Shown here: positions 3,004-37,646 of the stretch, in pieces | How the letters are laid out: each line of letters begins with the position of its first letter | Numbering within the stretch: position 1 is the stretch's first letter | Assembly: GCF_023016285.1 (NCBI RefSeq) | Contig: NZ_CP095413.1 | Coordinates: 1,116,001 to 1,180,000 of the forward strand | DNA from: Muricauda sp. SCSIO 64092 | GTDB lineage: Bacteria > Bacteroidota > Bacteroidia > Flavobacteriales > Flavobacteriaceae | DNA: 64,000 bases | Direction of reading: 5' to 3' | Program-made: the position numbers and the translations under genes | The notes under the pieces: model-generated | The model's database searches: none | What the model saw: only the letters and a program-made list of their open reading frames with translations | What the model was told of the DNA's origin: nothing

Positions 3004-5268
3004 ATGACGAATACAGTTTATCCCAAGGGAATTTTACCCTATATCCCTTTCTTTTACGTGATTTGGTCAGACGATTTGTTGTCTGCTTCCGAAATTCAAG
3101 TGGTACAAAAGGCCATTACATCAGACCCCTCACTCAACGAAAAGGAAAAAGCACAATTGTGGTCTTGGCTGGACCGTTCCAATCCACCCAACAACTCCGA
3201 AATTAAATCCTGGCAAACCTTGATTACCTCCAGCAAAGCAACATTGGTGGAATCCGAAATCTATCCCTTGGAAACCTTTTCCCGTAAAGTGGCCCAGCAC
3301 TTTACCCATAAGGGCGATCCCAATGAATATTTACAATATATAGAGCGAACTCTAGGCATACAGCCCAACCACTACAACCATTTGTTCAATGTTACCGTAG
3401 TACATCAAATCAATTCCGATCGATACAACCCGGGGGACCTAGATCAAATTCTAAACCAAAAAGGATGGGAGGTTGTCCAAGACTTTAGAAACTACCTTAA
3501 AAATGACCTCTATAGCTGGGCCGTCCATCGTTCAAAAGAAGATGCGCGGGCCATAGTCCTGAAACAACTGAACCACTTGGCCAAAGATGGGTGGGGAGCG
3601 TACGGTTATCCGGAGGCCTATGGAGGAAGAAATGATATGGAAAACTACGCCACCATATTCGAACACCTCATGTTTGTAGATGGTAGTTTGGGCGTGAAAT
3701 TTGGAGTCCAGTTCGGGCTTTTTGGTGGGAGTATCCAAAGTCTGGGAAATGATGAACAACGCAGGCGCTATTTGACAAAGGCAGGTAGTGCCAATCTCCT
3801 GGGGTGTTTTGCCATGACGGAAACAGGTCATGGAAGTAATGTCCGCGGCATCAATACTACGGCTACCTATATCCATAAGGAAAGGGCCATTGTTATACAT
3901 ACCCCAGGGGAAAATGATAACAAGGAATACATTGGTAACGCCTTACATTCCAAAATGGCCACTGTTTTTGCCCAACTGTTGGTGAACGGCAAAAACGAAG
4001 GTGTACACGCTATTTTGGTACCCTTGAGGGATGACAAACACGAAGAACTTCAAGGAATCCGTATAGCGGACAATGGATACAAACTTGGTCTTAATGGGGT
4101 GGACAACGGAAAGATTTGGTTCCACCAGGTAAAAGTTCCCGTAGAAAACCTTTTGGACAACTACGGGGGCATCGCTTCGGATGGAAACTATCAATCCCGA
4201 ATAAAAAATCCGAACAAACGATTTTTCACCATGCTGGGCACCTTGGTCGGGGGACGCATTTGTGTTGCAAAAGGGGCTTTGGCAGCCGCAAAAATGGCAC
4301 TGGCCATAGCGGTAAAGCACAGTTTAAAAAGACGCCAATTCAACGACTCGATTAAAATTCAGGAAGACTTGTTGATGGACTATCCAACCCACCAACTAAG
4401 ACTTATTCCAAGGGTGGCCAGCTGCTATGTTTATCACTTTGCCCTGCAACGGGCCATGGCGGAGTATGCTTCCAATACATCCGATGATAAACGCAAAATA
4501 GAAACCCAAGTTGCGGGACTCAAAGCAATCATCACCTGGTTTTCTTCGGCGGCAATCCAAGAAAGCCGGGAAGCTTGCGGTGGAAAGGGTTATTTACTGG
4601 AGAACCGCATTGGGGACTTAAAAAATGATTCGGACATCTTTACCACTTTTGAAGGGGACAATACCGTGCTCTTACAATTGGCCGCCAAAGGGGTATTATC
4701 GGATTTTAATGCTGAATTCAATTCGGGGGGATTTACCAGTGTATTGAAATTCTTGCGGAGCCAACTCTCCGATAAATTAACCACCATAAACCCCATGTAC
4801 TCCAACAAAGTGGATAGTGAACACCTCTACAACCCTAAGTTTCATTTGCACGCATTGGACTTTAGATTACGCCGCTTGACCTATACCGCGGCAATGCGCA
4901 TTAGAAATTACATTAAGAAAGGTATTCCGAGTTACCAGGCTTTTTTAAAGACACAAACCCATTTGTTGGAAGTTGGTAAAGCCTACAGTGCAGTTCTTGC
5001 CCTTACCTGGTATTATGACAAGATCGATGGTATGGAAGAAGGGGAATACAAAAACCTGTTTTATCAAATTGGGGCACTTCATTCGTTATATACCCTCCGA
5101 AAAGATGCCGACTGGTATTTGGAGCAAGGTTATTTCGGAAGCACAAAATCCAAAGCCATTAGACAGCGTGTAGAACGCCTAAGTTCGGAACTCAGGCCCT
5201 ATGTCAAAGCTTTGGTGGAAGGTTTTGGAATTCCAGAACATTTAATGACGGCCCCCATAGCGAGTTAG
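3004..5268 (+). CDS. Acyl-CoA dehydrogenase/oxidase family protein (acyl-CoA oxidase-like)
   Basis: This flavoprotein of about 754 residues is nearly twice the length of an ordinary acyl-CoA dehydrogenase and resembles peroxisome-type acyl-CoA oxidases. It has DGWGAYGYPEAYGG-like N-terminal sequence, the FAD/substrate motif CFAMTETGHGSNVRG, the R-rich ALAAAKMALAIAVKHS stretch, and TTFEGDNTVLLQLAAKG, where the Glu of EGDN is the expected catalytic base. It should carry out the first step of fatty-acid beta-oxidation, forming a trans-2-enoyl-CoA. Whether electrons go to oxygen or to an electron-transfer flavoprotein is not decidable from sequence. The ATG at 3004 (MTNTVYPKG) is preferred to an upstream in-frame start at 2986. 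It is divergent from ruvB. Confidence 0.9.
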   Translation: MTNTVYPKGILPYIPFFYVIWSDDLLSASEIQVVQKAITSDPSLNEKEKAQLWSWLDRSNPPNNSEIKSWQTLITSSKATLVESEIYPLETFSRKVAQHFTHKGDPNEYLQYIERTLGIQPNHYNHLFNVTVVHQINSDRYNPGDLDQILNQKGWEVVQDFRNYLKNDLYSWAVHRSKEDARAIVLKQLNHLAKDGWGAYGYPEAYGGRNDMENYATIFEHLMFVDGSLGVKFGVQFGLFGGSIQSLGNDEQRRRYLTKAGSANLLGCFAMTETGHGSNVRGINTTATYIHKERAIVIHTPGENDNKEYIGNALHSKMATVFAQLLVNGKNEGVHAILVPLRDDKHEELQGIRIADNGYKLGLNGVDNGKIWFHQVKVPVENLLDNYGGIASDGNYQSRIKNPNKRFFTMLGTLVGGRICVAKGALAAAKMALAIAVKHSLKRRQFNDSIKIQEDLLMDYPTHQLRLIPRVASCYVYHFALQRAMAEYASNTSDDKRKIETQVAGLKAIITWFSSAAIQESREACGGKGYLLENRIGDLKNDSDIFTTFEGDNTVLLQLAAKGVLSDFNAEFNSGGFTSVLKFLRSQLSDKLTTINPMYSNKVDSEHLYNPKFHLHALDFRLRRLTYTAAMRIRNYIKKGIPSYQAFLKTQTHLLEVGKAYSAVLALTWYYDKIDGMEEGEYKNLFYQIGALHSLYTLRKDADWYLEQGYFGSTKSKAIRQRVERLSSELRPYVKALVEGFGIPEHLMTAPIAS

Positions 5269-9786: not shown

Positions 9787-10914
9787 TTATTCGTTTATGG
9801 CGACAACTTCCGCTGTTTCCATATTTTCCAAAGGAGCTTTTTCTTCCCCTCCATTGGCGGCCAAGAGCGTTTCTGTAAACGTTTTTTGTTCAGCCATCCA
9901 ATCATTGTATTCATCTTCGGTAACCACCACAATTTTCATTTGCATATTGTAGTGCGATTTACCACAGATTTTATTGCAAAGTAAGACATAATCAAATTCC
10001 CATGGGTCCGAATTGGGCCTTCCTTCGGCAGCCCATTTCGCCCTTAATTGATTGGTCCGTTTTACTTTGTCAACCACATCCGGGTTCAGTCTCATTTCTT
10101 CCGTTGTGATGGTTGGGGTGAAAGAAAACTGTGTGATCATTCCCGGCACACAGTTCATTTGCGCCCTAAAGTGCGGCATATAAGCCGAATGCAATACGTC
10201 TTGGGAACGCATGTAAAAATTCACTTTTCTTCCAACGGGAAGATATAATTCCTTTACTATAATGTCATCCGTGGCATTGGGGTCGGATTCATCCAATCCC
10301 AAAACGTTGGCCCTATTAATGTCTATCAATCGAACACTGGCATCACCCAAAACATTGTCCTGCCCCCCATACCTCGCGGTCCAATTAAACTGTTGGGCAT
10401 ATAGCTCTACAATCAAGGGGTCATCTTCTTCGTTCACATCCATAATCTCAGTCCAATAGTAGAGTCCGGAGATAATCAAGCCTGCGAGCACAATAACCGG
10501 GATGATGGTCCAAATAAACTCCAATCTGTCATTATCGGCATAAAATAGTGCCTTTTTTCCCTTCTCCCCTCTGTATTTGTAACCGAAATAATGAAGCAAT
10601 GCCTGGGTAATGGTCTGCACAAAGAAAATTACGGCGAAGGAAATCCACATCAATGTATCGTATTCCCCACCGTGGGCAGAGGCTGCTTCTGGTAACAGCA
10701 CCTTGGTGTACTTTGCAAAGCTAAATATGGTGATACCGTATATGAATATCAAAAAGAGGAACAATAGGTATCCATTGGCCCTATTATCGGAATCATTTGC
10801 AATTTCCGATTTTGAAGCATCTACTCGTAATTGAGACAATTCAAATATTTTGGTCAATTGCCAGATGGCAATAGCCACCAAAACAAGAACCGTTAAAACT
10901 AATAATGTCGTCAT
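9787..10914 (-). CDS. ctaC: Cytochrome c oxidase subunit II
   Basis: The 375-residue protein has several N-terminal hydrophobic segments: a first helix (LLVLTVLVLVAIAIW), a second near 55 (LFLFLIFIYGITIFS), and the pair typical of subunit II. A periplasmic cupredoxin domain follows. The CuA ligands are in DVLHSAYMPHF (His) and in LLCNKICGKSHYNMQM (Cys, Cys, His, Met). The usual CxExC has Lys in place of Glu; that position binds copper through the backbone, so this need not impair the site. It accepts electrons from a c-type cytochrome or directly from alternative complex III and passes them to subunit I. It starts 24 bases after actF. The C-terminal tail (about 35 residues) is acidic and probably disordered. 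Confidence 0.95.
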   Translation of the reverse strand: MTTLLVLTVLVLVAIAIWQLTKIFELSQLRVDASKSEIANDSDNRANGYLLFLFLIFIYGITIFSFAKYTKVLLPEAASAHGGEYDTLMWISFAVIFFVQTITQALLHYFGYKYRGEKGKKALFYADNDRLEFIWTIIPVIVLAGLIISGLYYWTEIMDVNEEDDPLIVELYAQQFNWTARYGGQDNVLGDASVRLIDINRANVLGLDESDPNATDDIIVKELYLPVGRKVNFYMRSQDVLHSAYMPHFRAQMNCVPGMITQFSFTPTITTEEMRLNPDVVDKVKRTNQLRAKWAAEGRPNSDPWEFDYVLLCNKICGKSHYNMQMKIVVVTEDEYNDWMAEQKTFTETLLAANGGEEKAPLENMETAEVVAINE

Positions 10915-10938
10915 TTCTTAATTTTTCTCTTCCGCTTT

Positions 10939-12297
10939 TTAGTAATGGAAATGTCTACTTTCTTCAATAAATGGATTACGTTTCGGCATCAATTCTTCTT
11001 TGGTAAGGGCTGTGAACGTCCAAAAGACAAACAAACCACCAAAGAACAATATCCCACCTATTTCGGGTATTCCAAGATGCCAGTTCTCACCAACGGTTGC
11101 GGGCATTACCATGTTGAATACATCCATATAATGTCCAAACAAAATAATGATTCCCGTCATAATTACGAACCAATTTACACGTTTGTAGTCACTGTTCATC
11201 AACACTAATAGTGGAAAGATAAAATTAAGTGCCAACATACCAAAGAATGGCAGTTTATAATGTTCTATTCGAGTAACGAAATAGGTGACCTCTTCGGGGA
11301 TATTCGCATACCATATCAACATAAACTGACTAAACCACAAATACGTCCAAAAGATGCTTATGCCAAACATAAATTTGGCCAAATCGTGGATATGGCTATC
11401 GTTCACTTCCTGCAGGTATCCTTTGGATTTTAGATAGATGGTTACCATTGCTATTACGGTAATCCCAGAAACGAACATACTGGCAAATACATACCATCCA
11501 AAAAGCGTACTGAACCAGTGAGGATTCAAACTCATGATCCAATCCCATGACATCATGGATTCCGATATCAAATAGAATACCAAGAATCCTGCAGACCATC
11601 TAAAGTTCTTTTTGAAATTGGAATCATCATCCGCCTTGTCCTGGGCCAAGCTCAATTTTCTTGAAATCTGGCGGTAAGCAATCCATCCACCAAGGAAAAT
11701 AGCAGCCCTGATCAAGAAAAATGTAGGATTTAAATACCCCTGTTTTCCTTGCAATAATGCGTCATGGGCAACAACTTCCGCATCCATCCAGGTGAACATA
11801 TGGTTAAAGTGCAATACGGATAGTACCAATAACACGAATACTATGATTCCCCCCGGGACCAAATAGGCGGTTATCCCTTCCATGACCCTAAACAGCAAAG
11901 GAGCCCAACCTGCCTGCGCAGCCCTGTTGACCGCATAAAAGGCAAGTGTTCCAAGTGATATCATAAAGAAAAAGAAGGCCGCTACATATAAGGCCGACCA
12001 TGGCCTGTTCTTTAATTGATGGTACACGTGTTCGTCATGGGAGGCACTATGCCCTTCGCCATGGCCTGCTGCCTCTTCGGTATGTTCCCCGTCATGGGAA
12101 GCCATCGCGTTGGTTTGATCGGCATGTGCATCGCCACCATGTCCACCATGACCATCGGAATGGGCAGCCGCGACCATTGCCTTGGCCTCCTCCACGTTGG
12201 CGGGGGTATTCATAAATCCAGCAATAAGCATCACTAAGCCAAGGCCCATTGCTATGTACGACCCAATTTTTAATCTATTTGAAAAGGTATATTTCAT
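10939..12297 (-). CDS. actF: Alternative complex III subunit ActF
   Basis: ActF is one of the two large NrfD-like membrane subunits of alternative complex III, the quinol:electron-acceptor oxidoreductase that replaces the bc1 complex in this phylum. The 452-residue protein has an N-terminal hydrophobic segment, then about 60 residues very rich in His, Gly and Asp (HSDGHGGHGGDAHADQ and similar), then about ten hydrophobic segments including FRWSAGFLVFYLISESMMSWDW and HIHDLAKFMFGISIFWTYLWF-like sequence. Position after actE and before ctaC matches the canonical act gene order. The His-rich insert is not part of the core fold and may bind metal; that is inference. It starts 9 bases after actE. 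Confidence 0.93.
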   Translation of the reverse strand: MKYTFSNRLKIGSYIAMGLGLVMLIAGFMNTPANVEEAKAMVAAAHSDGHGGHGGDAHADQTNAMASHDGEHTEEAAGHGEGHSASHDEHVYHQLKNRPWSALYVAAFFFFMISLGTLAFYAVNRAAQAGWAPLLFRVMEGITAYLVPGGIIVFVLLVLSVLHFNHMFTWMDAEVVAHDALLQGKQGYLNPTFFLIRAAIFLGGWIAYRQISRKLSLAQDKADDDSNFKKNFRWSAGFLVFYLISESMMSWDWIMSLNPHWFSTLFGWYVFASMFVSGITVIAMVTIYLKSKGYLQEVNDSHIHDLAKFMFGISIFWTYLWFSQFMLIWYANIPEEVTYFVTRIEHYKLPFFGMLALNFIFPLLVLMNSDYKRVNWFVIMTGIIILFGHYMDVFNMVMPATVGENWHLGIPEIGGILFFGGLFVFWTFTALTKEELMPKRNPFIEESRHFHY

Positions 12298-25021: not shown

Positions 25022-25666
25022 ATGAAAAGAAAAACCGTTTTTACAGGAACAATCGTTGTCCTCTTATTTTCTGCATGTTCTTCGTATTTGACCAGTTCAG
25101 AAAATGTGGGCAAAACCAAGAAACCCTACGAAAAGATACTTGTTGTGGGACGGTCAAAGGACAATACCGCTCGAATCAAATTTGAAAACAGTGTGGTTTC
25201 CGAATTGAAGGAAGCGGGAGTGAAAGGAACCGCGTCCCATGCGGCCAATAAAATCATTGATTTAAACAGGAAGTATTCCGAGACCGAATTGGCCACTTTA
25301 AAGAAAACCCTCATGGCCAATGGTTATGACGGTGTGATCGTTACCAATTTAATCAATACCGAAGAATACACCGATGTTATTCCAGGAAACACATCCACTG
25401 CCTATGTTCCAACACGGGCAGGAAGGTTTGGTCGTTATCTGGTCTATTATCCGGTCACAAGATGGGAACCGGACCAGTTGAGAAGCGGTACGAAATATGT
25501 TTTTGAGAGTAGTCTTTACCGACTTACGGAAGATTCTGGCGATAACCTCCAATGGATAGGACGTTTTGAGGCCAAAGACCCATCCAACCTAACCAATACC
25601 GTGAACAAGTATGCCAAGGATTTAACGAATGCCCTGATAAAAAGCAGCATTTCCACTGACAACTAA
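25022..25666 (+). CDS. Lipoprotein of unknown function
   Basis: The 214-residue protein has a lipoprotein signal (FTGTIVVLLFSACSS, lipid-attached Cys near residue 19). The mature part begins KPYEKILVVGRSKDNTARIK and contains VVSELKEAGVKGTASHA and LMANGYDGVIVTNL, the pattern of a small alpha/beta domain seen in Bacteroidota lipoproteins that resemble the LPS-assembly/curli-type lipoprotein folds; the similarity is only by style. The C-terminal half has WEPDQLRSGTKYVFESSLYR and ends KDLTNALIKSS. I do not recognise a specific family and propose no function beyond an envelope location. It stands alone, divergent from rimP, with a hairpin in its leader. Confidence 0.8.
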   Translation: MKRKTVFTGTIVVLLFSACSSYLTSSENVGKTKKPYEKILVVGRSKDNTARIKFENSVVSELKEAGVKGTASHAANKIIDLNRKYSETELATLKKTLMANGYDGVIVTNLINTEEYTDVIPGNTSTAYVPTRAGRFGRYLVYYPVTRWEPDQLRSGTKYVFESSLYRLTEDSGDNLQWIGRFEAKDPSNLTNTVNKYAKDLTNALIKSSISTDN

Positions 25667-27704: not shown

Positions 27705-27775
27705 GTTCGACATAAGAAAATTACGTCATTTTGAGTGTTTTTGCGATAGCAAAAATGTATCGAAAAACCTGCCTG
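27705..27775 (+). repeat. Left arm of a long imperfect palindromic intergenic repeat
   Basis: GTTCGACATAA, CGTCATTTTGAGTG, ATGTATCGAAA and CCTGCCTG occur here in order and reappear, reverse-complemented and in the same order, at 29000-29114 (CAGGCAGG, TTTCGATACAA, CACTCAATTTGACGG, TTATGCCGAAC). The two arms enclose the IS110 element. Similar GTCATTTCGA/TCGAAATGAC-type palindromes are common between genes of flavobacteria. Confidence 0.65.
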
Positions 27776-27830
27776 CCCTGCAGCCGGCTCTTAGGTTTGT
27801 ATTATTAAATCGAAGTATCTTAAAAAAGAA

Positions 27831-27967
27831 AAGGATGGGTGAACTTTCTTGCCGGCTAGATAAGATCCATTGCCTGTATTAGTCCCATCCTTAACTTTTA
27901 GACTGCCCGGAACCAGTTGGAATTTTAGATATCAAGGTCTATTAAGAGTCTTAGTCCCCTGGCAATC
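27831..27967 (+). ncRNA. Candidate IS110 bridge RNA (two stem-loops)
   Basis: Between the proposed left end and the transposase start are two large stem-loops. The first has a perfect 9-pair stem, AAGGATGGG (27831-27839) with CCCATCCTT (27884-27892), around a 44-base loop. That loop contains GCCGGCT (27851-27857), identical to the left flank at 27783-27789, and TGCCTGTATT (27871-27880), perfectly complementary to the right flank at 28996-29005. The second has GACTGCC (27901-27907) with GGCAATC (27961-27967), one mismatch, and includes TAAGAG (27943-27948), complementary to CTCTTA at 27788-27793 across the left boundary. This is the target-loop then donor-loop order described for IS110 bridge RNAs. 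Exact RNA ends are unknown. Confidence 0.55.
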
Positions 27968-27989
27968 ATTAACCTAATTCAAATGTACA

Positions 27990-28976
27990 ATGAAAAAAGA
28001 ATTTATCGGTATTGACGTTTCAAAAAGTACCCTCGATGTATACCTCTATCATGGCAAAGCGCACAAAGTATTTGATAATACCCTCACTGGGTTCTCTAAA
28101 TTATTAGCCTGGGCGAAAAGACAATTGAAAGAAACTGAACCTGTATTTTGTTTTGAGCACACGGGTATCTATAGCTTAAAACTTTGTGAATTTATGCAAC
28201 AAAATCAGTTTACCTATTTTGTGATCTCTGGGTTGGAACTCAAGCGGTCTCTGGGTATTAAACGTGGAAAGAATGACAAGGTCGATGCACAAGCTATTGC
28301 GCGTTATGCCTTTTTGTTCGAAAAGGAGTTGACCCCCTATCAACTTCCGGCCACATCATTATTAAAGCTGAAGAACTTATTAACTTACCGTGCTAAACTT
28401 GTACGGCAAAGAACAGCCCACCTCAACCAAATCACCGAGCAAAAAAAAGTGCTGCAGGTATCCCCGGATGATCCCATACTTGTTTCTGCGCAACAGATCA
28501 TACAATTTTTGACCAAGGAAATCCTTCAGATCGAAAAACTTATAAGAACTCAGATCCAACAAAATCAAGAAATCACTCGAACCTTTAAGCATATCACCTC
28601 TATCAAGGGAGTCGGTTTAATCCTGGCGGTAACACTAATCACCGCAACCGATAACTTTAAAGCGTTTAAAACCTGGAGACAATTTGCTTGTTATGCCGGA
28701 ATTGCGCCTTTTGAGCATCAATCAGGAACGAGTATAAAAGGCAAAACCAGGATAAGTACCTTGGGAAACCGAACAATAAAAACCTTGCTATCACAAGCAG
28801 CAGCTACCGCATTACAGCATGATCCAGAGATAAAAATGTATTACCAGCGGAGGTTGAAAGCCGGTAAATCCAAAATGTCAACAATCAATGTGATACGTAA
28901 TAAAATAGTAAGCCGAACTTTTGCCGTGGTCAAGCGGGACAAGCCATATGTAAATTTAGCAAAATATGCAGCTTGA
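27990..28976 (+). CDS. IS110-family transposase/recombinase
   Basis: The 328-residue protein has the two IS110 domains. The N-terminal RuvC-like DEDD domain shows FIGIDVSKSTLDVYLY (first Asp), CFEHTGIYSLKL (Glu), and KNDKVDAQAIARYA (two Asp). The C-terminal Transposase_20 domain shows ITSIKGVGLILAVTLITAT and FACYAGIAPFEHQSGTSIKG with the conserved serine region expected to be the nucleophile, then GNRTIKTLLSQAA. All expected motifs are present and the frame is open, so the gene could be active. IS110 recombinases use a non-coding RNA from the element's own end to choose target and donor DNA; a candidate lies directly upstream. Confidence 0.93.
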   Translation: MKKEFIGIDVSKSTLDVYLYHGKAHKVFDNTLTGFSKLLAWAKRQLKETEPVFCFEHTGIYSLKLCEFMQQNQFTYFVISGLELKRSLGIKRGKNDKVDAQAIARYAFLFEKELTPYQLPATSLLKLKNLLTYRAKLVRQRTAHLNQITEQKKVLQVSPDDPILVSAQQIIQFLTKEILQIEKLIRTQIQQNQEITRTFKHITSIKGVGLILAVTLITATDNFKAFKTWRQFACYAGIAPFEHQSGTSIKGKTRISTLGNRTIKTLLSQAAATALQHDPEIKMYYQRRLKAGKSKMSTINVIRNKIVSRTFAVVKRDKPYVNLAKYAA

Positions 28977-28999
28977 AAATTTGGATAAACCTTAGAATA

Positions 29000-29114
29000 C
29001 AGGCAGGCAAGTGATTTTCTTGCAAAATCCTAATTTCGATACAATTTTTCTTCACTTTATTACGAAAAACCACTCAATTTGACGGATTTTGGTTGATAAC
29101 AAATTATGCCGAAC
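29000..29114 (-). repeat. Right arm of the palindromic intergenic repeat
   Basis: Reverse complement of the arm at 27705-27775 with insertions: shared blocks are GTTCGGCATAA, CGTCAAATTGAGTG, GTTTTTCG, TTGTATCGAAA and CCTGCCTG. The stem-forming CCTGCCTG (27768-27775) and CAGGCAGG (29000-29007) would be only about 30 bases apart without the IS110 element. From 29115 to 29299 I see no gene; a CTAGCCGG at 29146-29153 echoes the left flank. Confidence 0.6.
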
Positions 29115-29299: not shown

Positions 29300-29965
29300 T
29301 TATTTGGATTGGTTAATAAACTTGCCTATAACTACGGCAGTAATGATCACCAGATAAAAATTACCTAACAATCCTATTAAAAGTGTTGCTTTTTGAGCTA
29401 GACTGGTGATTGGAATGATGTCCCCGTAACCGATGGTCATTAACGTTATGAAGCTAAAATACATCAACTGTTCCGCCACAAACTCCGGCCGTTCCGGCAT
29501 TCCCAGGAATGCGCCTTGAAAGGAATTGGGAGTGCTCATTTCTATGCTCATGCATATAAAAAACCCGATAAGACCCAAGGAGATAAATCCACTGACCAAT
29601 CCAAATATTACATTTTTGTTTACGCGTTTGGCATACCAGACTTGCCTGATTATCTCAAAGGAAACCACCAGGTAGAACAGGAAATAGCCCCCTAAACGAA
29701 GAAAGCCCAATTCCTTTGATGCTTTCCCCAACAATATTGAAACAATGAACACAATTGCGCTTAGGCCCAGCACTCCAACACAGAACCACATTAACCTCGG
29801 TTTTTTGGAAATAAGCAATATCCCGGCAAGTAGGTTGATCAAAAAAAGTATGGGATCCAAAACGGTTTCGAACAAAGCGGCCGGCATAATCAATGAGCCG
29901 AACAAAATGGCCACCTGGCTGGACAGAAATAATTCAAAACGGCTATGGTACAATTTTTCAAGCAT
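29300..29965 (-). CDS. K+-type ion channel protein (Ion_trans_2 pore)
   Basis: The 221-residue protein has about five to six hydrophobic segments. Near the C-terminus is a pore helix and filter, YFSFITLMTIGYGDIIPITS, in which TIGYGD is the potassium-selectivity signature, followed by a last helix (ATLLIGLLGNFYLVIITAVVIGKF) and only four more residues. It therefore has no cytoplasmic cyclic-nucleotide-binding or RCK domain. It is the last gene of the five-gene run and its start overlaps the cyclase stop by 8 bases, so the two are probably made in step. A channel downstream of a nucleotide cyclase suggests the cyclase product may affect ion flux, but no binding domain is visible in this protein. 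Confidence 0.88.
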   Translation of the reverse strand: MLEKLYHSRFELFLSSQVAILFGSLIMPAALFETVLDPILFLINLLAGILLISKKPRLMWFCVGVLGLSAIVFIVSILLGKASKELGFLRLGGYFLFYLVVSFEIIRQVWYAKRVNKNVIFGLVSGFISLGLIGFFICMSIEMSTPNSFQGAFLGMPERPEFVAEQLMYFSFITLMTIGYGDIIPITSLAQKATLLIGLLGNFYLVIITAVVIGKFINQSK

Positions 29966-31040
29966 TGGTAATTACCGTATGGATGTTTACTTTTTTCTGC
30001 TTTCCTTTCAAGAGCACATCGCCAAGATACTTTGTGGAAAAAAAATCATCTGAAATCAGGTCCTTCAATAGTTTTTCAGAAATAAGAATCGGTACTTTAT
30101 ACGAATTGCACTCTGCCTGTATACGGGCCGATGTGTTGATGACATCCCCATGATAGGCTACTTCCTTTTTGACCACCCCAACTTCGGCCACCATCAGCAC
30201 GCCACCGTGCAAACCGGCCTTAAACTCAGGAAAGGCCCCATATTTGTTGGTGTAGTAGTCCTTTTTTGTTGATAATTTTTGTTTGAAGGCAAAGAAAAGT
30301 TTCACACAATTGTTGTTCGACAACCCTTTTTCATAAGGCCAACTTAGTACGGCCTCATCACCAACATATTGATAGATTTCCGCATCATAATTGGGCACTA
30401 CTTCATTCAAATCATAAAAACAATCCTGAATGAGTTGACTATATTTCAAATGGCCCAATTGCTCCGCTATTGCCGTGGAAGATTTGAGGTCCAAAAACAT
30501 GAAAATACGCTTCTCCTCTTTCGGCTCTTTATACTTTCCAAAGAGCATTTTCAAGAAAACCCCTTTACCAAATTTGTCATTCGCAATTTGAATGGACGAT
30601 AACACCAAGCCAGCTATGGCAATGTATAGGATGATGGCCCAGAACGTTCTGTCGAATATCCACCACCCTTTCTTATTGTTGATTCCCATGTCGTACACCA
30701 GATTGGTGATTTCAATGACCAGGGTGGAAAGTATCACTGTGGTAATGAGGTAAACAAGGAAACCTATGATTAAACTGAGTCCAATGGAGACTCTTTTGGA
30801 GAGGTATTTATCCAGAACGAATTCAATAAATGCACCGACAACACCGATAAGTAGCCCAAACAGTGTGAACATGGACAACGCCCTGGAAAAGCTATACTCA
30901 GCAGGAGTGAATATCCCTTCTTCTTCGGCGAGGCCGTAATATCTAAAAATGGCAAAAAGTGCCATGGCAATCATCCAAAAAACAATTGACTGCCCAAGCT
31001 GTTTCAAAAGCTTTTTCAGGTCCTTATTTCGTTGCTTCAT
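29958..31040 (-). CDS. Membrane-anchored class III nucleotide cyclase
   Basis: The N-terminal half (about 1-185) has four to five hydrophobic segments. The C-terminal half is a class III cyclase domain: RIFMFLDLKSSTAIAEQLGH (first metal Asp), IYQYVGDEAVLSWPY (second metal Asp), FKAGLHGGVLMVAEVG, and YHGDVINTSARIQAECN with the transition-state Asn and Arg. The residue four before the second Asp, normally Lys in adenylate cyclases, is Gln, and the paired base-selecting position seven before the Asn is Ala, so the nucleotide made cannot be assumed to be cAMP. It starts 2 bases after the RND pump stop and overlaps the channel gene. Confidence 0.9.
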   Translation of the reverse strand: MKQRNKDLKKLLKQLGQSIVFWMIAMALFAIFRYYGLAEEEGIFTPAEYSFSRALSMFTLFGLLIGVVGAFIEFVLDKYLSKRVSIGLSLIIGFLVYLITTVILSTLVIEITNLVYDMGINNKKGWWIFDRTFWAIILYIAIAGLVLSSIQIANDKFGKGVFLKMLFGKYKEPKEEKRIFMFLDLKSSTAIAEQLGHLKYSQLIQDCFYDLNEVVPNYDAEIYQYVGDEAVLSWPYEKGLSNNNCVKLFFAFKQKLSTKKDYYTNKYGAFPEFKAGLHGGVLMVAEVGVVKKEVAYHGDVINTSARIQAECNSYKVPILISEKLLKDLISDDFFSTKYLGDVLLKGKQKKVNIHTVITNA

Positions 31041-31042
31041 TA

Positions 31043-34000
31043 CTACCCATCCAAAAGTGCTTCATTAAATTGATACCCTTTATAACTGACCTTGAAAAGG
31101 GCACTGTAAAGCGAAGGTATGAATAGCAAGGTGATAATGGTGCCAAATAGGAGTCCAATCATAATACTTATGGCCATTCCTTCCCACATTTCACCCCCGG
31201 AAAGGTAGAGGGGCACCAACCCCAAAATCGTTGTAAAAGTGGACAATAATATGGGTCGAAACCGTTGTAGGCAAGCCGCAATGACCGAATCCTGATTTGT
31301 TCTACCCGCGGCCAGTTCCACCTCCATACGGTCAATGAGGACAATGGCGTTATTGATTACAATACCGGCCAAGGAAATGACGCCCAAAAAGGGCATAAAC
31401 CCAAAAGCTTCCTGAAAGACCAACAGTCCAATGACCACCCCAATTATCCCAAGGGGAATGGTTAGCACGACCATCGTCATTTTACGCACTGAATTGAATT
31501 GAATGATCAATAGCAATACAATAATAAATCCGGAAATAGGAAGATAGCCAATAATGGGACCCATATTCTCTGCGGTTTGCTCGGCATCGCCTCCCAATTC
31601 GTAGGTATATCCGGCGGGCCACGCCCCATTGACCTGTTCTTCCAACCAAGGAGTGACCACTGACATGATTGCGGAAGCATTGCCGCCCTCGCGCAATTCA
31701 CTGCTTATATTGATGGTACGCCTCAAGTCCAGTCTTTTTATTTTGGCATATTGCCAAGTAGGTACTATTGAGGCAACTTGTAACAGGGGTACACTTTTAC
31801 CACTGTTTTGCGAATACACATTTAAGGTTTCCAAGGAAGCCAGGGTTTGTTGCTGGCTATCGCCACTCCGCATGACAATAGGTATGGATTTATTGTCCTC
31901 CCTATACTCACCGGTTTGAAAACCGTCCAAAACTGTTTGTAGCGATGTGGCAATATCAGAACTGGTAATGCCCGCATTCTGGGCCCTGTTCTGATCAATT
32001 TCAATCAAAAACTTTTTACTCTTTGGGCCCCAGTCATCCTTAACATTCTTCGTGAAATCCACTCCCGATAACTTCTGCTTTACACTTTCCGCAATGGTGG
32101 AAAGTTCGTCCGGTTCCGGTCCGGATACTTTAATTTCTATCGGGGTTCCTCCACCGCCAGAACCCAATAACCCTACCTTGATATCCGCATTCGGAAAATT
32201 TCTAAAGGAATAGCCATCCAGCCGTTTTACCATTTCGGCATTTTCTTCAAAGGAAGTGGTGTTTACCAAAATATGGGCATAGTTTGAATTGGCCTCGTCC
32301 GGGGAGTAGCCCAAATCATAAGATTCGGGTCCTTCCCCAATGTAAGAGGACCAACTTACAATGCCTTTATCCCTTTCTGTATTGACTTTAAGGGAATCTG
32401 CCATGAAGCCTTCTATTTGGTTCACCACATCGGTGGTGCGTTCTATTTTGTTACCCTCGGGCAGATTAATGTCAATGGTAATCATGTTACGATCACTGTC
32501 CGGGAAAAAGATGAATGGGATAAAACCAAATCCGTACAGTGAAAGAAAGAAAGCCAAAAAAATGCCCACAATAACTTTGTATTTATGCTTTAGCGCCAAT
32601 AATATCAAATCCTTATAATAGCCCTTGGCCGAGTTGATAACGCGATCCACAAGGCTGGGCTTTTGTTCACCCTTGGGCGCTACCTTTAGAAACATGTAGC
32701 AAAACATGGTAATTACGGTAAGTGCGATTAACCAAGACGACATTAACGCTATGGTTATCACCACAAAAATGGGCCCAACAATATCTCCCATGGTTGTTGG
32801 CGATAGGTAGAAGGCCAAAAATGCCGCTGAGGTGGTTAAAGTGGAAATCAATAATGGCATCCATAACTCGGAAAAGGCTTCTATTGCGGCCTTATACTTT
32901 TCCACACCCTGCTCGAGTTTTACCATAATGGTTTCGGCCACTACAATGGCATTATCAACCAACATCCCCAATGCCATAATAAGCGCTGCCAGGGTTACCT
33001 GGTTCAATCCCATATTGATAATGCCCATGAGCATCAAGGTCATGATGGTCACAATCGGAATTAAACTGGCAATGACGAATCCCGTACGGAAACCCAAAAA
33101 GACAAGCATGACCACCAATACGATGCTTATGGATTGCATGAGGTTCACCATAAAATCACTCACCTTTACATCTATGTAATCATCCAAAGAGGACACTCTG
33201 GTCAATTCCAGACCGACCGGAAGGCGATTTTGCCATTGGGTCACCACTTGATTTACTGCTTCGCCCAGGTAAACAATATTTTTATCTTCCTTGAGGTTAA
33301 CATGCATGGTGATGGCTTCTTTTCCATCAACACTGACAATTTGTTTGGGAGGATCGATATATCCTTTTGTTACCGAGGTAATATCACCAAGTTTTACCGA
33401 TTGGGACCCGTTCCCTACGGCAATCAACATATTTTGGATATCCTCAACGGAATCGAAATTACCGGTAGGCTCCAAAATAATACGCTCATCCCCCACATTG
33501 ATCTGTCCCCCGGAACTTAAAATATTGGTCGCACCAATGCTTTGTTGCAACTTGGAAGCCGATAGGCCATATTCCTTTAAGCGGGTATTATCGAATTCCA
33601 CAAAAACGCGTTCGTCCTGCACTCCGCCCAGTTCCACCTTGGCAGCATCGGGCAGTTTGATCAAATCGTCCTTGATATCATCGGCAAAGTCCTTCATTTC
33701 CGAATAACTGAACCCATCTGATGTTAAGCCCACAACAATGCCATAAACATCACCAATGCCATCATCATTTAAATTAGGGTTTACTCCCGATGGAAGGCCT
33801 TCAATAGCATTCAATTTCCGACGTAAACGGTCCCAGACGGACTGGAGCGTTTCTGGCGAGACCTCGTCCTTTAACGAAACACTTACCACAGAGAGCCCGG
33901 TCCGTGAAGTACTGGTTACTTCCTTAAGCTCCGGAAGCTCCTGCGCCACTTTTTCAACTTTGTCGGTGACCAATTGCTCAACCCGTTCAGGACTGGCCCC

Positions 34001-34156
34001 AGGAAACTGGGAAACCACCGTAGCCACGCGGACGGTGTAAGGTGGCATACTATCTTGGGATAAGCTGAAATACATATTGATCCCCAGCAGGATAATCGTT
34101 GCCAGCACCATAAAGGTGATGCGATTTTTGTCGATTGAGAATTTTGCTAAATTCAT
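31043..34156 (-). CDS. RND-family efflux pump inner-membrane subunit (AcrB-like)
   Basis: The ~1037-residue protein shows the RND layout: TM1 (FMVLATIILLGINMYFS), a large periplasmic loop (QDSMPPYTVRVATVVSQFPG, ERVEQLVTDKVEKV), a central set of helices with ALIMALGMLVDNAIVVAE (the proton-relay Asp region in TM4) and the second loop, then TM8-12 with GIVINNAIVLIDRMEVE. It would export small molecules, driven by the proton gradient, through the periplasmic adaptor and outer-membrane channel encoded upstream. The ATG at 34156 (MNLAKFSIDKN) is chosen over 34228, placing the start 22 bases after the adaptor stop. Substrate is unknown; the VDNAIVV sequence is of the broad hydrophobe-exporter type rather than the metal-exporter type. 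Confidence 0.94.
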   Translation of the reverse strand: MNLAKFSIDKNRITFMVLATIILLGINMYFSLSQDSMPPYTVRVATVVSQFPGASPERVEQLVTDKVEKVAQELPELKEVTSTSRTGLSVVSVSLKDEVSPETLQSVWDRLRRKLNAIEGLPSGVNPNLNDDGIGDVYGIVVGLTSDGFSYSEMKDFADDIKDDLIKLPDAAKVELGGVQDERVFVEFDNTRLKEYGLSASKLQQSIGATNILSSGGQINVGDERIILEPTGNFDSVEDIQNMLIAVGNGSQSVKLGDITSVTKGYIDPPKQIVSVDGKEAITMHVNLKEDKNIVYLGEAVNQVVTQWQNRLPVGLELTRVSSLDDYIDVKVSDFMVNLMQSISIVLVVMLVFLGFRTGFVIASLIPIVTIMTLMLMGIINMGLNQVTLAALIMALGMLVDNAIVVAETIMVKLEQGVEKYKAAIEAFSELWMPLLISTLTTSAAFLAFYLSPTTMGDIVGPIFVVITIALMSSWLIALTVITMFCYMFLKVAPKGEQKPSLVDRVINSAKGYYKDLILLALKHKYKVIVGIFLAFFLSLYGFGFIPFIFFPDSDRNMITIDINLPEGNKIERTTDVVNQIEGFMADSLKVNTERDKGIVSWSSYIGEGPESYDLGYSPDEANSNYAHILVNTTSFEENAEMVKRLDGYSFRNFPNADIKVGLLGSGGGGTPIEIKVSGPEPDELSTIAESVKQKLSGVDFTKNVKDDWGPKSKKFLIEIDQNRAQNAGITSSDIATSLQTVLDGFQTGEYREDNKSIPIVMRSGDSQQQTLASLETLNVYSQNSGKSVPLLQVASIVPTWQYAKIKRLDLRRTINISSELREGGNASAIMSVVTPWLEEQVNGAWPAGYTYELGGDAEQTAENMGPIIGYLPISGFIIVLLLIIQFNSVRKMTMVVLTIPLGIIGVVIGLLVFQEAFGFMPFLGVISLAGIVINNAIVLIDRMEVELAAGRTNQDSVIAACLQRFRPILLSTFTTILGLVPLYLSGGEMWEGMAISIMIGLLFGTIITLLFIPSLYSALFKVSYKGYQFNEALLDG

Positions 34157-34178
34157 TGGGTGGATGGTTATGGTATTT

Positions 34179-35264
34179 TTATTGCAACCTAACTTCTTGG
34201 CCGTCCAAAAGGGTCTGTAATCCCGCAATTGCTATTCTTTGTCCCGAGGAAAGACCAGAGGTTACTTCAAACCCTTGGGCGGTTAAATTACCTAATTGAA
34301 CTTCCTGCTTCTTTACTTTGGCCGTGTCCCCTTCTCCCTCCACCAGAAAAACAAAACGTCCGTTACTGTCCTCTCCCACGGCGTGGGCAGGAACAACCAA
34401 AACGTTGTCACTTGAATCGTAATCGCCAAAATCAAAAGTAACGTTGGCCGCCATGCCACTCTTTATCGCATCACTGGGATTGGTGACGATAACCCTTACC
34501 GGATAAGTAGACGTATTGGCATCCACGGCAGGGGCCACTTCCGATACCCTGCCTTTAAACTGGTCTTCCGCTATGGAGGTAAAGTCCACTACGACATCCA
34601 TATTGGGATGTACCCCATTAATGATACTTTCCGGAATACCCAGGGTAATTTGCATATCCGTACCGGCATTTAAAACGGCAACGGACTGTCCCGGGCTTAC
34701 ATTCTCATCTATTTCGGCGGAAACAGAAGCTATGGTGCCATCTTCGGGCGCATAGATATAGCCATAATTGATCTGCTCCTGTTGGATTTCCACACCCCTT
34801 TTTGCAGACTTATAGCTCTCTTCCGCATTCCTAAAGGAATTTTTGGCTGCTTCAAAATCACTTAGGGAGGTACTTCCTTTTTCGTAAAGTGTTCGAACAC
34901 GGTTGAGACTTAATTTGGCCGTATTTACTTGGGAGGCCGCACTGTTCAATTGTGTAATTGATTGTTCGTAAGCCAAACGGGACTGTACGTTGTCCAATTT
35001 GGCCAATAATTGGCCTTTTTTCACATTCTGGCCCAGTTTTAAATCGAACTGTGTAATAATACCGGAATTTCTAAAGCTAAGATTGATGATCTTATCCGTT
35101 CTGGCCGTACCACTAAACGTTCGGGACTTCTCTCCCCCCAAAAAACCAATCTCCATATATTTTACGGGACGAAGCGATTTTTCCTCTTTCTTTTCCTCGG
35201 CTCCGCAGGAAAACAAAAGCATGCTCAATGCTAATAAAAAACCGAATTGTTGTATTCTTTTCAT
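34179..35264 (-). CDS. RND efflux periplasmic adaptor (membrane fusion protein), lipoprotein
   Basis: The ~361-residue protein has a lipoprotein signal (FLLALSMLLFSCGAEE). The mature part has the lipoyl-type half motif SGIITQFDLKLGQNVKKGQL, a coiled-coil hairpin of about 80 residues (SRLAYEQSITQLNSAASQV onward), IYAPEDGTIASVSAEIDENV, then beta-barrel and membrane-proximal domains ending GQRIAIAGLQTLLDGQEVRL. It bridges the RND pump and TolC. Start at 35264 (MKRIQQF) is preferred over 35285, giving a 21-base gap to the upstream gene and a standard signal. Confidence 0.93.
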   Translation of the reverse strand: MKRIQQFGFLLALSMLLFSCGAEEKKEEKSLRPVKYMEIGFLGGEKSRTFSGTARTDKIINLSFRNSGIITQFDLKLGQNVKKGQLLAKLDNVQSRLAYEQSITQLNSAASQVNTAKLSLNRVRTLYEKGSTSLSDFEAAKNSFRNAEESYKSAKRGVEIQQEQINYGYIYAPEDGTIASVSAEIDENVSPGQSVAVLNAGTDMQITLGIPESIINGVHPNMDVVVDFTSIAEDQFKGRVSEVAPAVDANTSTYPVRVIVTNPSDAIKSGMAANVTFDFGDYDSSDNVLVVPAHAVGEDSNGRFVFLVEGEGDTAKVKKQEVQLGNLTAQGFEVTSGLSSGQRIAIAGLQTLLDGQEVRLQ

Positions 35265-35285
35265 GTTCCAAATGTTTTTGGTCAA

Positions 35286-37646
35286 TTAATTTTGGTTATT
35301 CAGAAATTCAAAAAAACGTTGTTTGAACTCGTTATTTTTTTCTGGTGTGTTCAACAGAAAATAATAGCCCAGAAACCGCTCCAGTTGTAGGGCGTTGATC
35401 AAAAAGTTATACACCGCGTTCGCTCTGGCCAGTTGGGCGTTTAAATAATTGTTTTGGGCATCCAATAACTGAACAATGTTAACGGCTCCCTCGGAATAGG
35501 AGGCTCGAGTAAGCTCCAGGGCCTCGGCTGCCGTTTCTTCAGATATTTTCGATAATTGAATATTGGACATTTGGTTCACCAAATTCAACACCCCGTTTCT
35601 AACGTTTACCGAAATGCCCAACTCCAAATTATCCTTGTTGATCTCCAATTGATCCTTTTGGATAAGTGCCGTCTGCCGGTTGATATTATTCAAATTCTGA
35701 TTGATGATGGGAATGGAGATACTTGCACCGGCGGTATAAAAATTATCCACCAATCCAAACCCCAGGTTCGGGGGAACGGTACTCCCCGCCCCGGAACGAT
35801 TAAAGGTGGAGCTATACTGCCCTTGCAGGGCAACCGTGGGCAAAAAACGACCGTAGCCGTTTAATCGGATGTTTCGATCGGTGGCCTCAAGGCTATACCC
35901 CAGGGACTTTAGTTCAGGGGCATTTCGGTAGGCTTCCTCAATCAAAAAGTCCACAAATGGTTCCCGAAGGCTGGGGTTATCCAATAAAGCAAAAAGATCG
36001 TTGTAGTTATATTCCTTAAAAATTCCTTCGTCCAAGCCCACATCAGTGACATCAATTTCCAGATTGGAAGGATTGTTCAAAATCTGATTTAGAAATAAAA
36101 AACCTTGTTCCAATTGGTTAATGGCCTCGACCATGGCTTGGGTATTCTGGGCCATTTCACTTCTAAAACGAAGCATATCGGACTTGCCGGACTGCCCAGC
36201 TTCAAAATTCTGCTGGGATATCTCAAGGTTCCTTTTGGTCAAATCCACGTTCCGCACCTGTATTTGTGTATTTGCCTTAAGAATCAACACATTGAAATAG
36301 GCGTTCGCCGCATCGAAAATCAAATCCAACTGGGAGGCGTTAAAATCTTCCTGTTGCGCTTTTTGTAATTTCTTTTGAATGGTAATATTGGCATTGGCCG
36401 CCTCGGAAAAAACGGTTTGGTTGAGTGTAAGGTTTCCTGTAGTTGAGAACTCCGGGTTCTGTCCATTACTAATTTCCGCCAGGTCTGGGTCCACATAGGT
36501 CGCCGTACCGGAAGCGGTAAGGGATGGTAAGTAATTGCTCGTGGCCGTTTTTACGTCCTGCGAGGCCAAATCCACATCTCTTTGATTGGACTGAATGGAC
36601 AGATTTTGCTCCAAGGCTTCATTAATGACCGTTAAAAGGTCATATTCTTTTTCGGACAGGACATTCCTGAACTCACCAACAAAATCCGTTTCCCCAATCA
36701 AACTGTACTTCATGGGAAATCCTATGGTATCAGAGGTATTATAGTTTATCGTCAACCTTGGGTTGTAATCTATGAAAACAGGCAATTCAGCCATTGGGGT
36801 GCCCGTGACATAGGCTTCAATATTTAAGGCAATACGCCTAAAGAACTGGTCCAAATTCTCTTCGGACTGTAAAGTGGCCAAAAAGCCCAATTTCACATCT
36901 GCCGGACCGTTGACGGTAAAGGACGGCAATTTGCGTTCAAGAAGTTCCTGGACCAAGACTTTCTTTTCTTCCGTGGTCATAAAAAAACCACCGGCCATGT
37001 AAAAGGCATCGATCCCATCCAGGTTGGCAATGATATCATCAACGGACTCAAAGGGTATCAAGCGATAATCGGCTTCCAGCCGGGCCAGTTCGGCATCAAA
37101 GATTTCCTTAAGGGGCAAGATTTCAGCAATTTGGGTATCCATGGCAATACCCAGGTTTTTAAAATCACTGAGCTCTTTAAATCGGTTCAAATCATCTTGA
37201 TAGGATTCCGATTCTATCAAATAGGTGAAATTTTCAATTCCGGAATTGGCCTTGGAAAGATCCAATTGTTGCACATCCCTATTTACCGCCCCAAACAATA
37301 TGGTAGGTTTTTGATGGACGGCCAGCGGACTAATTATTTCGTTATTGAGTACCCCAAAGGCCAAAATGATATCGATATCACTGGCCAAAAGTTGCTCGTA
37401 ATTGTTTCTGGCCCGTTCCAAATCAAAATTGTTGATCAGAATGGCCTCCTCAGGAAAAACAATGATGGCATCTTCACCGACCACCGCCTTTACCTCATTT
37501 TTTAATTTATTGATTAAAGGCGCTACTTCCGGATTTGTCCTATCTACCAGGATCCCCACTTTATAGGTGCGTTTATCCTGGGCAATGGCTTGGCATAGAC
37601 TTGCCATGAAGCATAAAAGGACAGCAAAAATTTTGATAGACTTCAT
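35286..37646 (-). CDS. Periplasmic-binding-like domain fused to a TolC-type outer-membrane efflux protein
   Basis: The 786-residue protein has two parts. After a signal peptide (IFAVLLCFMASLCQAIAQ), residues about 27-310 look like an ABC-transporter substrate-binding fold (PF04392-like): YKVGILVDRTNPEVAPLI, DIDIILAFGVLNNEIISPLA, PTILFGAVN, FKNLGIAMDTQ and FTVNGPADVKLGFLATLQ. From about 345 to the end is a TolC/OEP protein: LLTVINEALEQNLSIQSNQR, LEISQQNFEAGQSGKSDMLR, the internal repeat with LELTRASYSEGAVNIVQLLD, and LARANAVYNFLINALQLERF. Ordinary TolC is about 430-480 residues. The fusion would place a small-molecule sensing or capture module beside the exit duct. It is first in the five-gene run. 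Confidence 0.85.
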   Translation of the reverse strand: MKSIKIFAVLLCFMASLCQAIAQDKRTYKVGILVDRTNPEVAPLINKLKNEVKAVVGEDAIIVFPEEAILINNFDLERARNNYEQLLASDIDIILAFGVLNNEIISPLAVHQKPTILFGAVNRDVQQLDLSKANSGIENFTYLIESESYQDDLNRFKELSDFKNLGIAMDTQIAEILPLKEIFDAELARLEADYRLIPFESVDDIIANLDGIDAFYMAGGFFMTTEEKKVLVQELLERKLPSFTVNGPADVKLGFLATLQSEENLDQFFRRIALNIEAYVTGTPMAELPVFIDYNPRLTINYNTSDTIGFPMKYSLIGETDFVGEFRNVLSEKEYDLLTVINEALEQNLSIQSNQRDVDLASQDVKTATSNYLPSLTASGTATYVDPDLAEISNGQNPEFSTTGNLTLNQTVFSEAANANITIQKKLQKAQQEDFNASQLDLIFDAANAYFNVLILKANTQIQVRNVDLTKRNLEISQQNFEAGQSGKSDMLRFRSEMAQNTQAMVEAINQLEQGFLFLNQILNNPSNLEIDVTDVGLDEGIFKEYNYNDLFALLDNPSLREPFVDFLIEEAYRNAPELKSLGYSLEATDRNIRLNGYGRFLPTVALQGQYSSTFNRSGAGSTVPPNLGFGLVDNFYTAGASISIPIINQNLNNINRQTALIQKDQLEINKDNLELGISVNVRNGVLNLVNQMSNIQLSKISEETAAEALELTRASYSEGAVNIVQLLDAQNNYLNAQLARANAVYNFLINALQLERFLGYYFLLNTPEKNNEFKQRFFEFLNNQN

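Follow-up and report, generated by a model that had tools for sequence, protein, structure and literature searches.

Judged from gene neighbourhoods across Flavobacteriaceae, the conserved unit of the operon described here is composed of a TolC-type outer membrane protein carrying an N-terminal binding domain, a periplasmic adaptor, an RND pump and a K+ channel, and its flanks are variable. The component families are already known; the combination is a pump operon with a K+ channel and a binding-domain TolC. No description of the pump–channel operon or of the TolC fusion was found in the open-licence literature searched.

Organization of the operon

The window, that is, the whole stretch of 64 000 nucleotides analysed, comes from a genome of 5.69 Mb assembled as a single contig. 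A check of the open reading frames places five genes on the minus strand at 37646–29300, separated in gene order by gaps of 21, 22 and 2 bases and ending with an 8-base overlap. The first gene (37646–35286) codes for a fusion protein of 786 amino acids, with a substrate-binding-protein-like domain at about residues 1–320 (36687–37646, minus strand), recognized from its AlphaFold model, Foldseek and a profile match, and a TolC-type outer membrane channel part (35286–36686, minus strand). The following genes, all on the same strand, encode a periplasmic adaptor, or membrane fusion protein (34179–35264; 361 amino acids from the ATG at 35264), an RND permease (31043–34156; 1037 amino acids from the ATG at 34156), a class III nucleotide cyclase with, by eye, an N-terminal membrane part (29958–31040; 360 amino acids) and a K+ channel (29300–29965; 221 amino acids).

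The five genes and their spacing are exactly as given in the preliminary description, and the identities proposed there agree with Pfam: OEP (PF02321, 1.4e-50) matches two stretches of the TolC part, HlyD_D23/HlyD_3 the adaptor, ACR_tran (PF00873, 1.8e-164) the permease, Guanylate_cyc (PF00211, 1.2e-9) the cyclase and Ion_trans_2 (PF07885, 2.6e-10) the channel. Among the NCBIfam models, TIGR01730 matches the adaptor at 2e-72, over the model cut-off, and TIGR01844 matches the TolC part at 1.3e-37, under that model's cut-off; the permease scores under the cut-offs of all the NCBIfam RND models listed.

A Na+/H+ exchanger gene lies upstream and ends 118 bases before the start of the TolC fusion. 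A promoter and terminator scan gave 27 promoter-like sites, a count near the shuffled level (23.1), and 18 terminator-like sites, compared with 12.9 in shuffled sequence (s.d. 3.9). An IS110-family element (about 27770–29062) separates the channel gene from that of pyruvate kinase and leaves the operon intact; its transposase (27990–28976, plus strand) has the Transposase_20 and DEDD_Tnp_IS110 domains. This stretch is absent from the near-identical loci L033 and L035 and is therefore probably a later insertion.

The binding domain, the pump and the channel

Against the PDB, the profile of the whole fusion protein gave TolC-type outer membrane proteins only, and the binding domain was therefore searched separately. 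Alone, it has no match to any Pfam family up to E 0.5, and so none to ABC_sub_bind, which we take to be the Pfam name and placement for this type of substrate-binding protein. Its AlphaFold model (pLDDT 89.1) nevertheless has the two-lobed fold of class I binding proteins, and the best Foldseek matches of the model are 3lft, 6hni, 6hnj and 3lkv (E 1e-12 to 4e-11), which are tryptophan-, tyrosine- and phenylalanine-binding proteins; the match to 3lft has E 9.6e-13 and TM 0.67/0.75. A profile search with the domain alone found 3lkv at E=0.0012. The binding of tryptophan, tyrosine and phenylalanine by proteins of the 3lft/6hni/3lkv type is reported in PMC6816091. The N-terminal periplasmic-binding domain of the preliminary description, blank in Pfam, is in this way recovered by modelling, and the predicted fold fits the accompanying idea that a compound is sensed and exported. 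The operon also provides an example of a TolC with a built-in binding domain, predicted to be of the amino-acid-binding type.

Permease, adaptor and TolC-type channel are encoded together, as is characteristic of tripartite RND efflux systems, and the solved structures closest to the permease are MexK and then 6vej. The AcrB-type proton relay is formed by Asp407, Asp408 and Lys940. In the alignment of the RND family, the first relay Asp is kept in all 44 sequences, the second is replaced by Asn in 44 of 44, and the Lys is replaced by Asn in 43 of 44. The permease of the window, with VDN in TM4 (read from the alignment) and INN in TM10 against VDD and K-N, does not have the AcrB-type relay. Two paralogues of the permease differ in this respect, L240 having the altered pattern as in the window and L234 having DD/K. 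With these residues altered, how much charge the pump moves, and even of which sign, is uncertain, as is its coupling ion.

The model of the channel (pLDDT 83.3) has six membrane helices and a pore helix. A TIGYGD selectivity filter, of the type expected in Ion_trans_2 K+ channels, stands between two helices, and its residues are invariant or nearly so among the relatives; the protein would be expected to conduct K+. The 50 Foldseek matches listed are all K+ and related channels, and all are weak (E 0.02 and up). A cyclic-nucleotide-binding domain was not found on the channel with Pfam, which detects the pore domain only; the protein ends with its last helix and so has no C-terminal binding domain of the kind that defines cyclic-nucleotide-gated K+ channels. 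In the table of PMC10434189, a Bacteroides two-pore K+ channel has a separate row.

Linkage of pump and channel in Flavobacteriaceae

The channel, the binding domain and the cyclase were searched for in 249 genomes of the family, belonging to 235 genera. Matches to the channel are present in 52 genomes (E 1e-10), to the binding domain in 40 (E 1e-10) and to the cyclase in at least 97 (E 1e-40; at most eight candidates scored per genome). There are 39 places in the 249 genomes where the binding domain scores over 200 bits, and at 31 of these the channel is found downstream on the same strand, at pump-length distance. The locus is broken at contig ends in G025 and G160, which have an RND–channel pair on another contig. 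Two weaker binding-domain places score 87 bits (G035, with no channel nearby) and 43 bits (a broken fragment in G179). The distance comparison used 41 of the 42 binding-domain matches (the second G179 fragment was left out), all 63 channel matches and 82 of the 144 cyclase matches, mostly the best-scoring and those from pump- or channel-bearing genomes; the remaining 62 were scanned by eye, and none is near a listed pump place.

Clustering of the open reading frames served as a control for 44 loci, with L034 and L035, from the genus of the window, left out. In the loci long enough, the TolC fusion is followed by the adaptor (43/43) and the RND permease (42/42), and the channel is among the first two open reading frames past the permease in 35 of 42 Flavobacteriaceae loci. 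Any other flanking family occupies a given position in six of the 44 loci at most, the commonest being the exchanger at position −1 (6/44). On the maps, the genes for TolC, adaptor, RND permease and channel are tightly packed in this order. Since it recurs across many genera, the pump–channel order appears to be more than chance. No such channel was found at E 1e-10 in four pump-bearing genomes (G272, G187, G207 and G294).

The RND–channel junction could be measured in 39 loci, including three from the genus of the window. Thirty junctions are shorter than 100 bases (median 2), one has 131 bases and eight hold a gene. The inserted gene codes for a cyclase in L033, L034, L035 and L113, for a META/DUF4377 protein in L037, for a DUF3575-like protein in L121 (with, by eye, a similar one at the corresponding place in L123) and, in L131, for a protein judged by eye to be similar to the product of 25022–25666 in the window. 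The preliminary description named a conserved order, with both the cyclase and the channel always beside the TolC fusion, as what would support a unit; the neighbourhoods retain the channel from this pair and not the cyclase, which lies in four of the 39 junctions, three of them from the genus of the window.

Occurrence outside the family

The binding domain is found at E 1e-6 in at least 18 of 345 genomes across the phylum, at least 16 of these being outside Flavobacteriaceae. This and some other genome searches scored part of the candidates (here six of the 78 candidates from the genome of the window; at most five or eight per genome in others), so that the counts of absence are upper bounds. 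Fourteen of the 16 outside loci were fetched (G441 and G488 were left out); an RND gene was seen in 11 of them, and a channel after it in one, G510. In this genome, a distant K+ channel with the filter TLGYGD lies 12 bases behind the RND gene of a pump of the same type. The channel of G510 is only distantly related and sits at the end of a long branch; it may represent an independent recruitment, of which it is a single case. Searched genome-wide at E 1e-10, such a channel was not found in G544, G377, G399, G536, G559, G588 and G472.

Exchange of the channel

Pumps that are 92–94% identical carry channels that are 49–67% identical. Over 37 loci, the Pearson correlation of pairwise identities is 0.86–0.91 within the pump and 0.39–0.64 between the pump parts and the channel (0.52 for RND and channel). 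In the RND tree, built with a quick method, the six pumps nearest that of the window group together as one clade (SH-aLRT 100). The channel data reject this clade (ΔlnL 135.6, p-AU 2e-33, a post hoc value, the clade having been picked after the first channel tree), and the RND data reject the clade L036 + L039 + L100 (p-AU 1e-8). With the upstream genes agreeing in L033, L034 and L036 and the exchanger also preceding the pump in L035, L038 and L039, the simplest reading would be that the channel has been exchanged in place and usually kept. Very fast divergence of the channel instead of exchange is less likely in view of the supported regrouping in the channel tree.

In the tree of 63 channels, the pump-free L139, L140 and L148 are nested with support among the pump-linked ones, which suggests that the pump was lost and the channel kept; many other forks of this tree are unresolved. 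A protein of about 1230 amino acids directly precedes the channel in six of the 63 cases. The same protein precedes the pump in some genera and the channel directly in others (L105, L140, L143, L145, L148, L151, L153), and its copy in L105 has a calcineurin-like phosphoesterase domain. This arrangement is what a loss of the three intervening pump genes would leave behind. In L129 (G028), a single pump operon has a channel gene on either side, the upstream one divergent (3067–3693, minus strand), the other downstream (10572–11264, plus strand); channel pairs of this kind could feed the exchange.

Proposed function

RND pumps draw on the membrane ion gradient, and to our knowledge the handling by the cell of the charge moved by pumping is rarely asked about. 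Reasoning from how RND pumps and K+ channels generally work, we tentatively propose, as the likeliest role, that the operon encodes a tripartite RND pump made jointly with a K+ channel, the K+ flow balancing charge during efflux. The binding domain, located on TolC's periplasmic face, would capture or sense a small molecule resembling an aromatic amino acid; the RND pump, powered by the membrane ion gradient, would export this molecule through TolC; and the channel encoded by the next gene would let K+ move, so stabilizing the membrane voltage as the pump consumes it. The cyclase would be an accessory restricted to a few lineages, where it may link the operon with cell-wide cyclic nucleotide signalling.

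That pump and channel function jointly is in itself rather probable. Their genes are presumably co-transcribed, and the gene order, the tight spacing, the conservation of pump and channel compared with the variable flanks, and a channel that is swapped yet kept all argue for a joint unit. The canonical filter of the channel, the predicted fold of the binding domain and the distant channel behind the pump of G510 also favour the proposal. Charge balance has against it that neither part needs the other, as pumps and channels also occur apart, that outside the family a channel follows the RND gene in 1 of 11 loci, and that the permease lacks two residues of the AcrB-type relay.

The same linkage could have arisen without joint action, the channel being an independent regulator of K+ or volume that stays behind the pump because the two share expression or because exchange is favoured at this site. 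We consider this somewhat unlikely. Channels do persist without a nearby pump, for example behind the protein of about 1230 amino acids, and the RND–channel stretch also takes in other genes; but a neighbourhood that merely favours insertion or expression does not account easily for other neighbours not being kept, for the presence of a channel in all the loci nearest the window, even though the channel differs, or for a distant channel in the same place in G510.

The proposal of a pump with balancing K+ flow could be carried further, to an electrically self-balancing efflux machine in which each pump is produced, and may even be assembled, along with a K+ channel of its own, the channel gating following pump activity and the exchange tuning the pump to different salt or voltage regimes; this extension is rather doubtful. 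An operon that keeps an exchangeable K+ channel across many genera is in any case a natural system for testing K+ support of efflux.

The cyclase as an optional addition

Class III cyclases have two metal-binding Asp residues and a transition-state Asn and Arg. The corresponding residues D184, D228, N302 and R306 are present in all of 46 aligned cyclases, taken from Flavobacteriaceae with a few from other families (cyclase domain of the window, 29985–30503). The residues that choose the base are Lys/Asp in adenylate cyclases and Glu/Cys in guanylate cyclases. Glu and Cys at the guanylate-type positions are visible in another alignment; the family itself does not follow the rule and has unusual base-choosing residues, with Gln (Q224 in the window) in 46 of 46 sequences and Ala (A295) in 40 of 46.

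In the genus of the window, seven of 11 genomes have the pump, the cyclase and the channel in one operon; the other four (G002, G006, G009 and G010) have no family pump or channel at E 1e-10, and more distant cyclases lie elsewhere in these genomes. A search of 396 genomes of the family, with at most five candidates scored per genome, found a cyclase at E 1e-95 or better in at least 52. When the best 30 cyclase loci were fetched, four were behind an RND gene (G000, G747, G042 and G046). These represent four genera (g1, g229, g33 and g37), the last of which has no channel: in L117 (G046), the RND gene is followed by the cyclase and the channel is absent. The cyclase as a core part, which the preliminary description took it to be, is ruled out by these neighbourhoods together with the count of junctions.

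A dedicated pair of cyclase and channel was also rejected. Cyclases 76–78% identical to that of the window adjoin channels of two clades, about 50% identical to each other, and channels of both clades occur within the genus of the window, in operons that include the cyclase. That a single lineage of cyclases neighbours both channel clades argues against a dedicated pair, as does a channel on which the pore domain alone was found. In the tree of the 46 cyclases, one supported clade (100/98) comprises nine pump-linked copies and six copies located elsewhere; a single move of the cyclase into the pump operon is possibly compatible with it. Another cyclase group adjoins rpmI, behind genes that by eye resemble accA and dnaB.

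These data bear on the operon as a signalling module, in which a compound detected by the binding domain would be exported by the pump, with cyclase and channel reporting or adjusting the membrane state. We find this reading improbable. The recurrence of the full operon in seven genomes of the window's genus, the other four being without pump and channel, would suit it, as would the 2-base and 8-base junctions of the cyclase, the conservation of its metal and transition-state residues and the 19 matches to cyclic-nucleotide-binding domains in the genome. Such a module is however difficult to reconcile with the rarity of the cyclase in RND–channel junctions, the pairing of one cyclase lineage with two channel clades, the channel on which no cyclic-nucleotide domain was found and the six cyclases of the same supported clade that lie away from pump and channel.

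A role in defence or toxin export, also raised in the preliminary description, with the channel as a Pycsar-like membrane-depolarizing effector triggered by the cyclase, is highly improbable: PycC profiles match, if weakly (2e-6 and 7e-5), and channel swapping resembles what an arms race can leave, but the cyclase is in 4/39 junctions, no gene with a cyclic-nucleotide-binding domain is among the five, no Pycsar receptor was found with PADLOC, and the window has F182/Q224/V226 (positions assigned from their spacing to the metal Asp) against the base-choosing set F/R/Q given for the cCMP-making EaPycC in PMC11224242.

Comparison with known systems

Pycsar systems (PycC with PycTM or PycTIR) resemble the operon in having a class III-type cyclase beside a membrane protein. 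They differ from it in that the five genes here include no cyclic-nucleotide receptor, the cyclase is optional and the base-choosing residues are others.

The channel shares the pore helix, the TIGYGD filter and the six-helix fold with the six-helix K+ channels that have no cytoplasmic domain (Ion_trans_2). It is distinguished by its place after an RND pump; neither an RCK nor a cyclic-nucleotide domain was found on it, and its helix 4 has, by eye, no arginine ladder.

The class I aromatic amino acid binding proteins SP1069 (3lft), CD0873 (6hni) and VC_1101 (3lkv) are the best fold matches to the modelled N-terminal domain, with 13–16% identity. They occur as independent binding proteins, with tyrosine import as the role assigned to CD0873, whereas the domain here is the N-terminus of a TolC protein.

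With the tripartite RND pumps, MexK and 6vej being the closest, the operon has in common a permease, an adaptor and a TolC-type channel encoded in one operon. It differs from them in the binding domain fused to TolC, in the K+ channel behind the pump and in the altered relay residues of TM4 and TM10.
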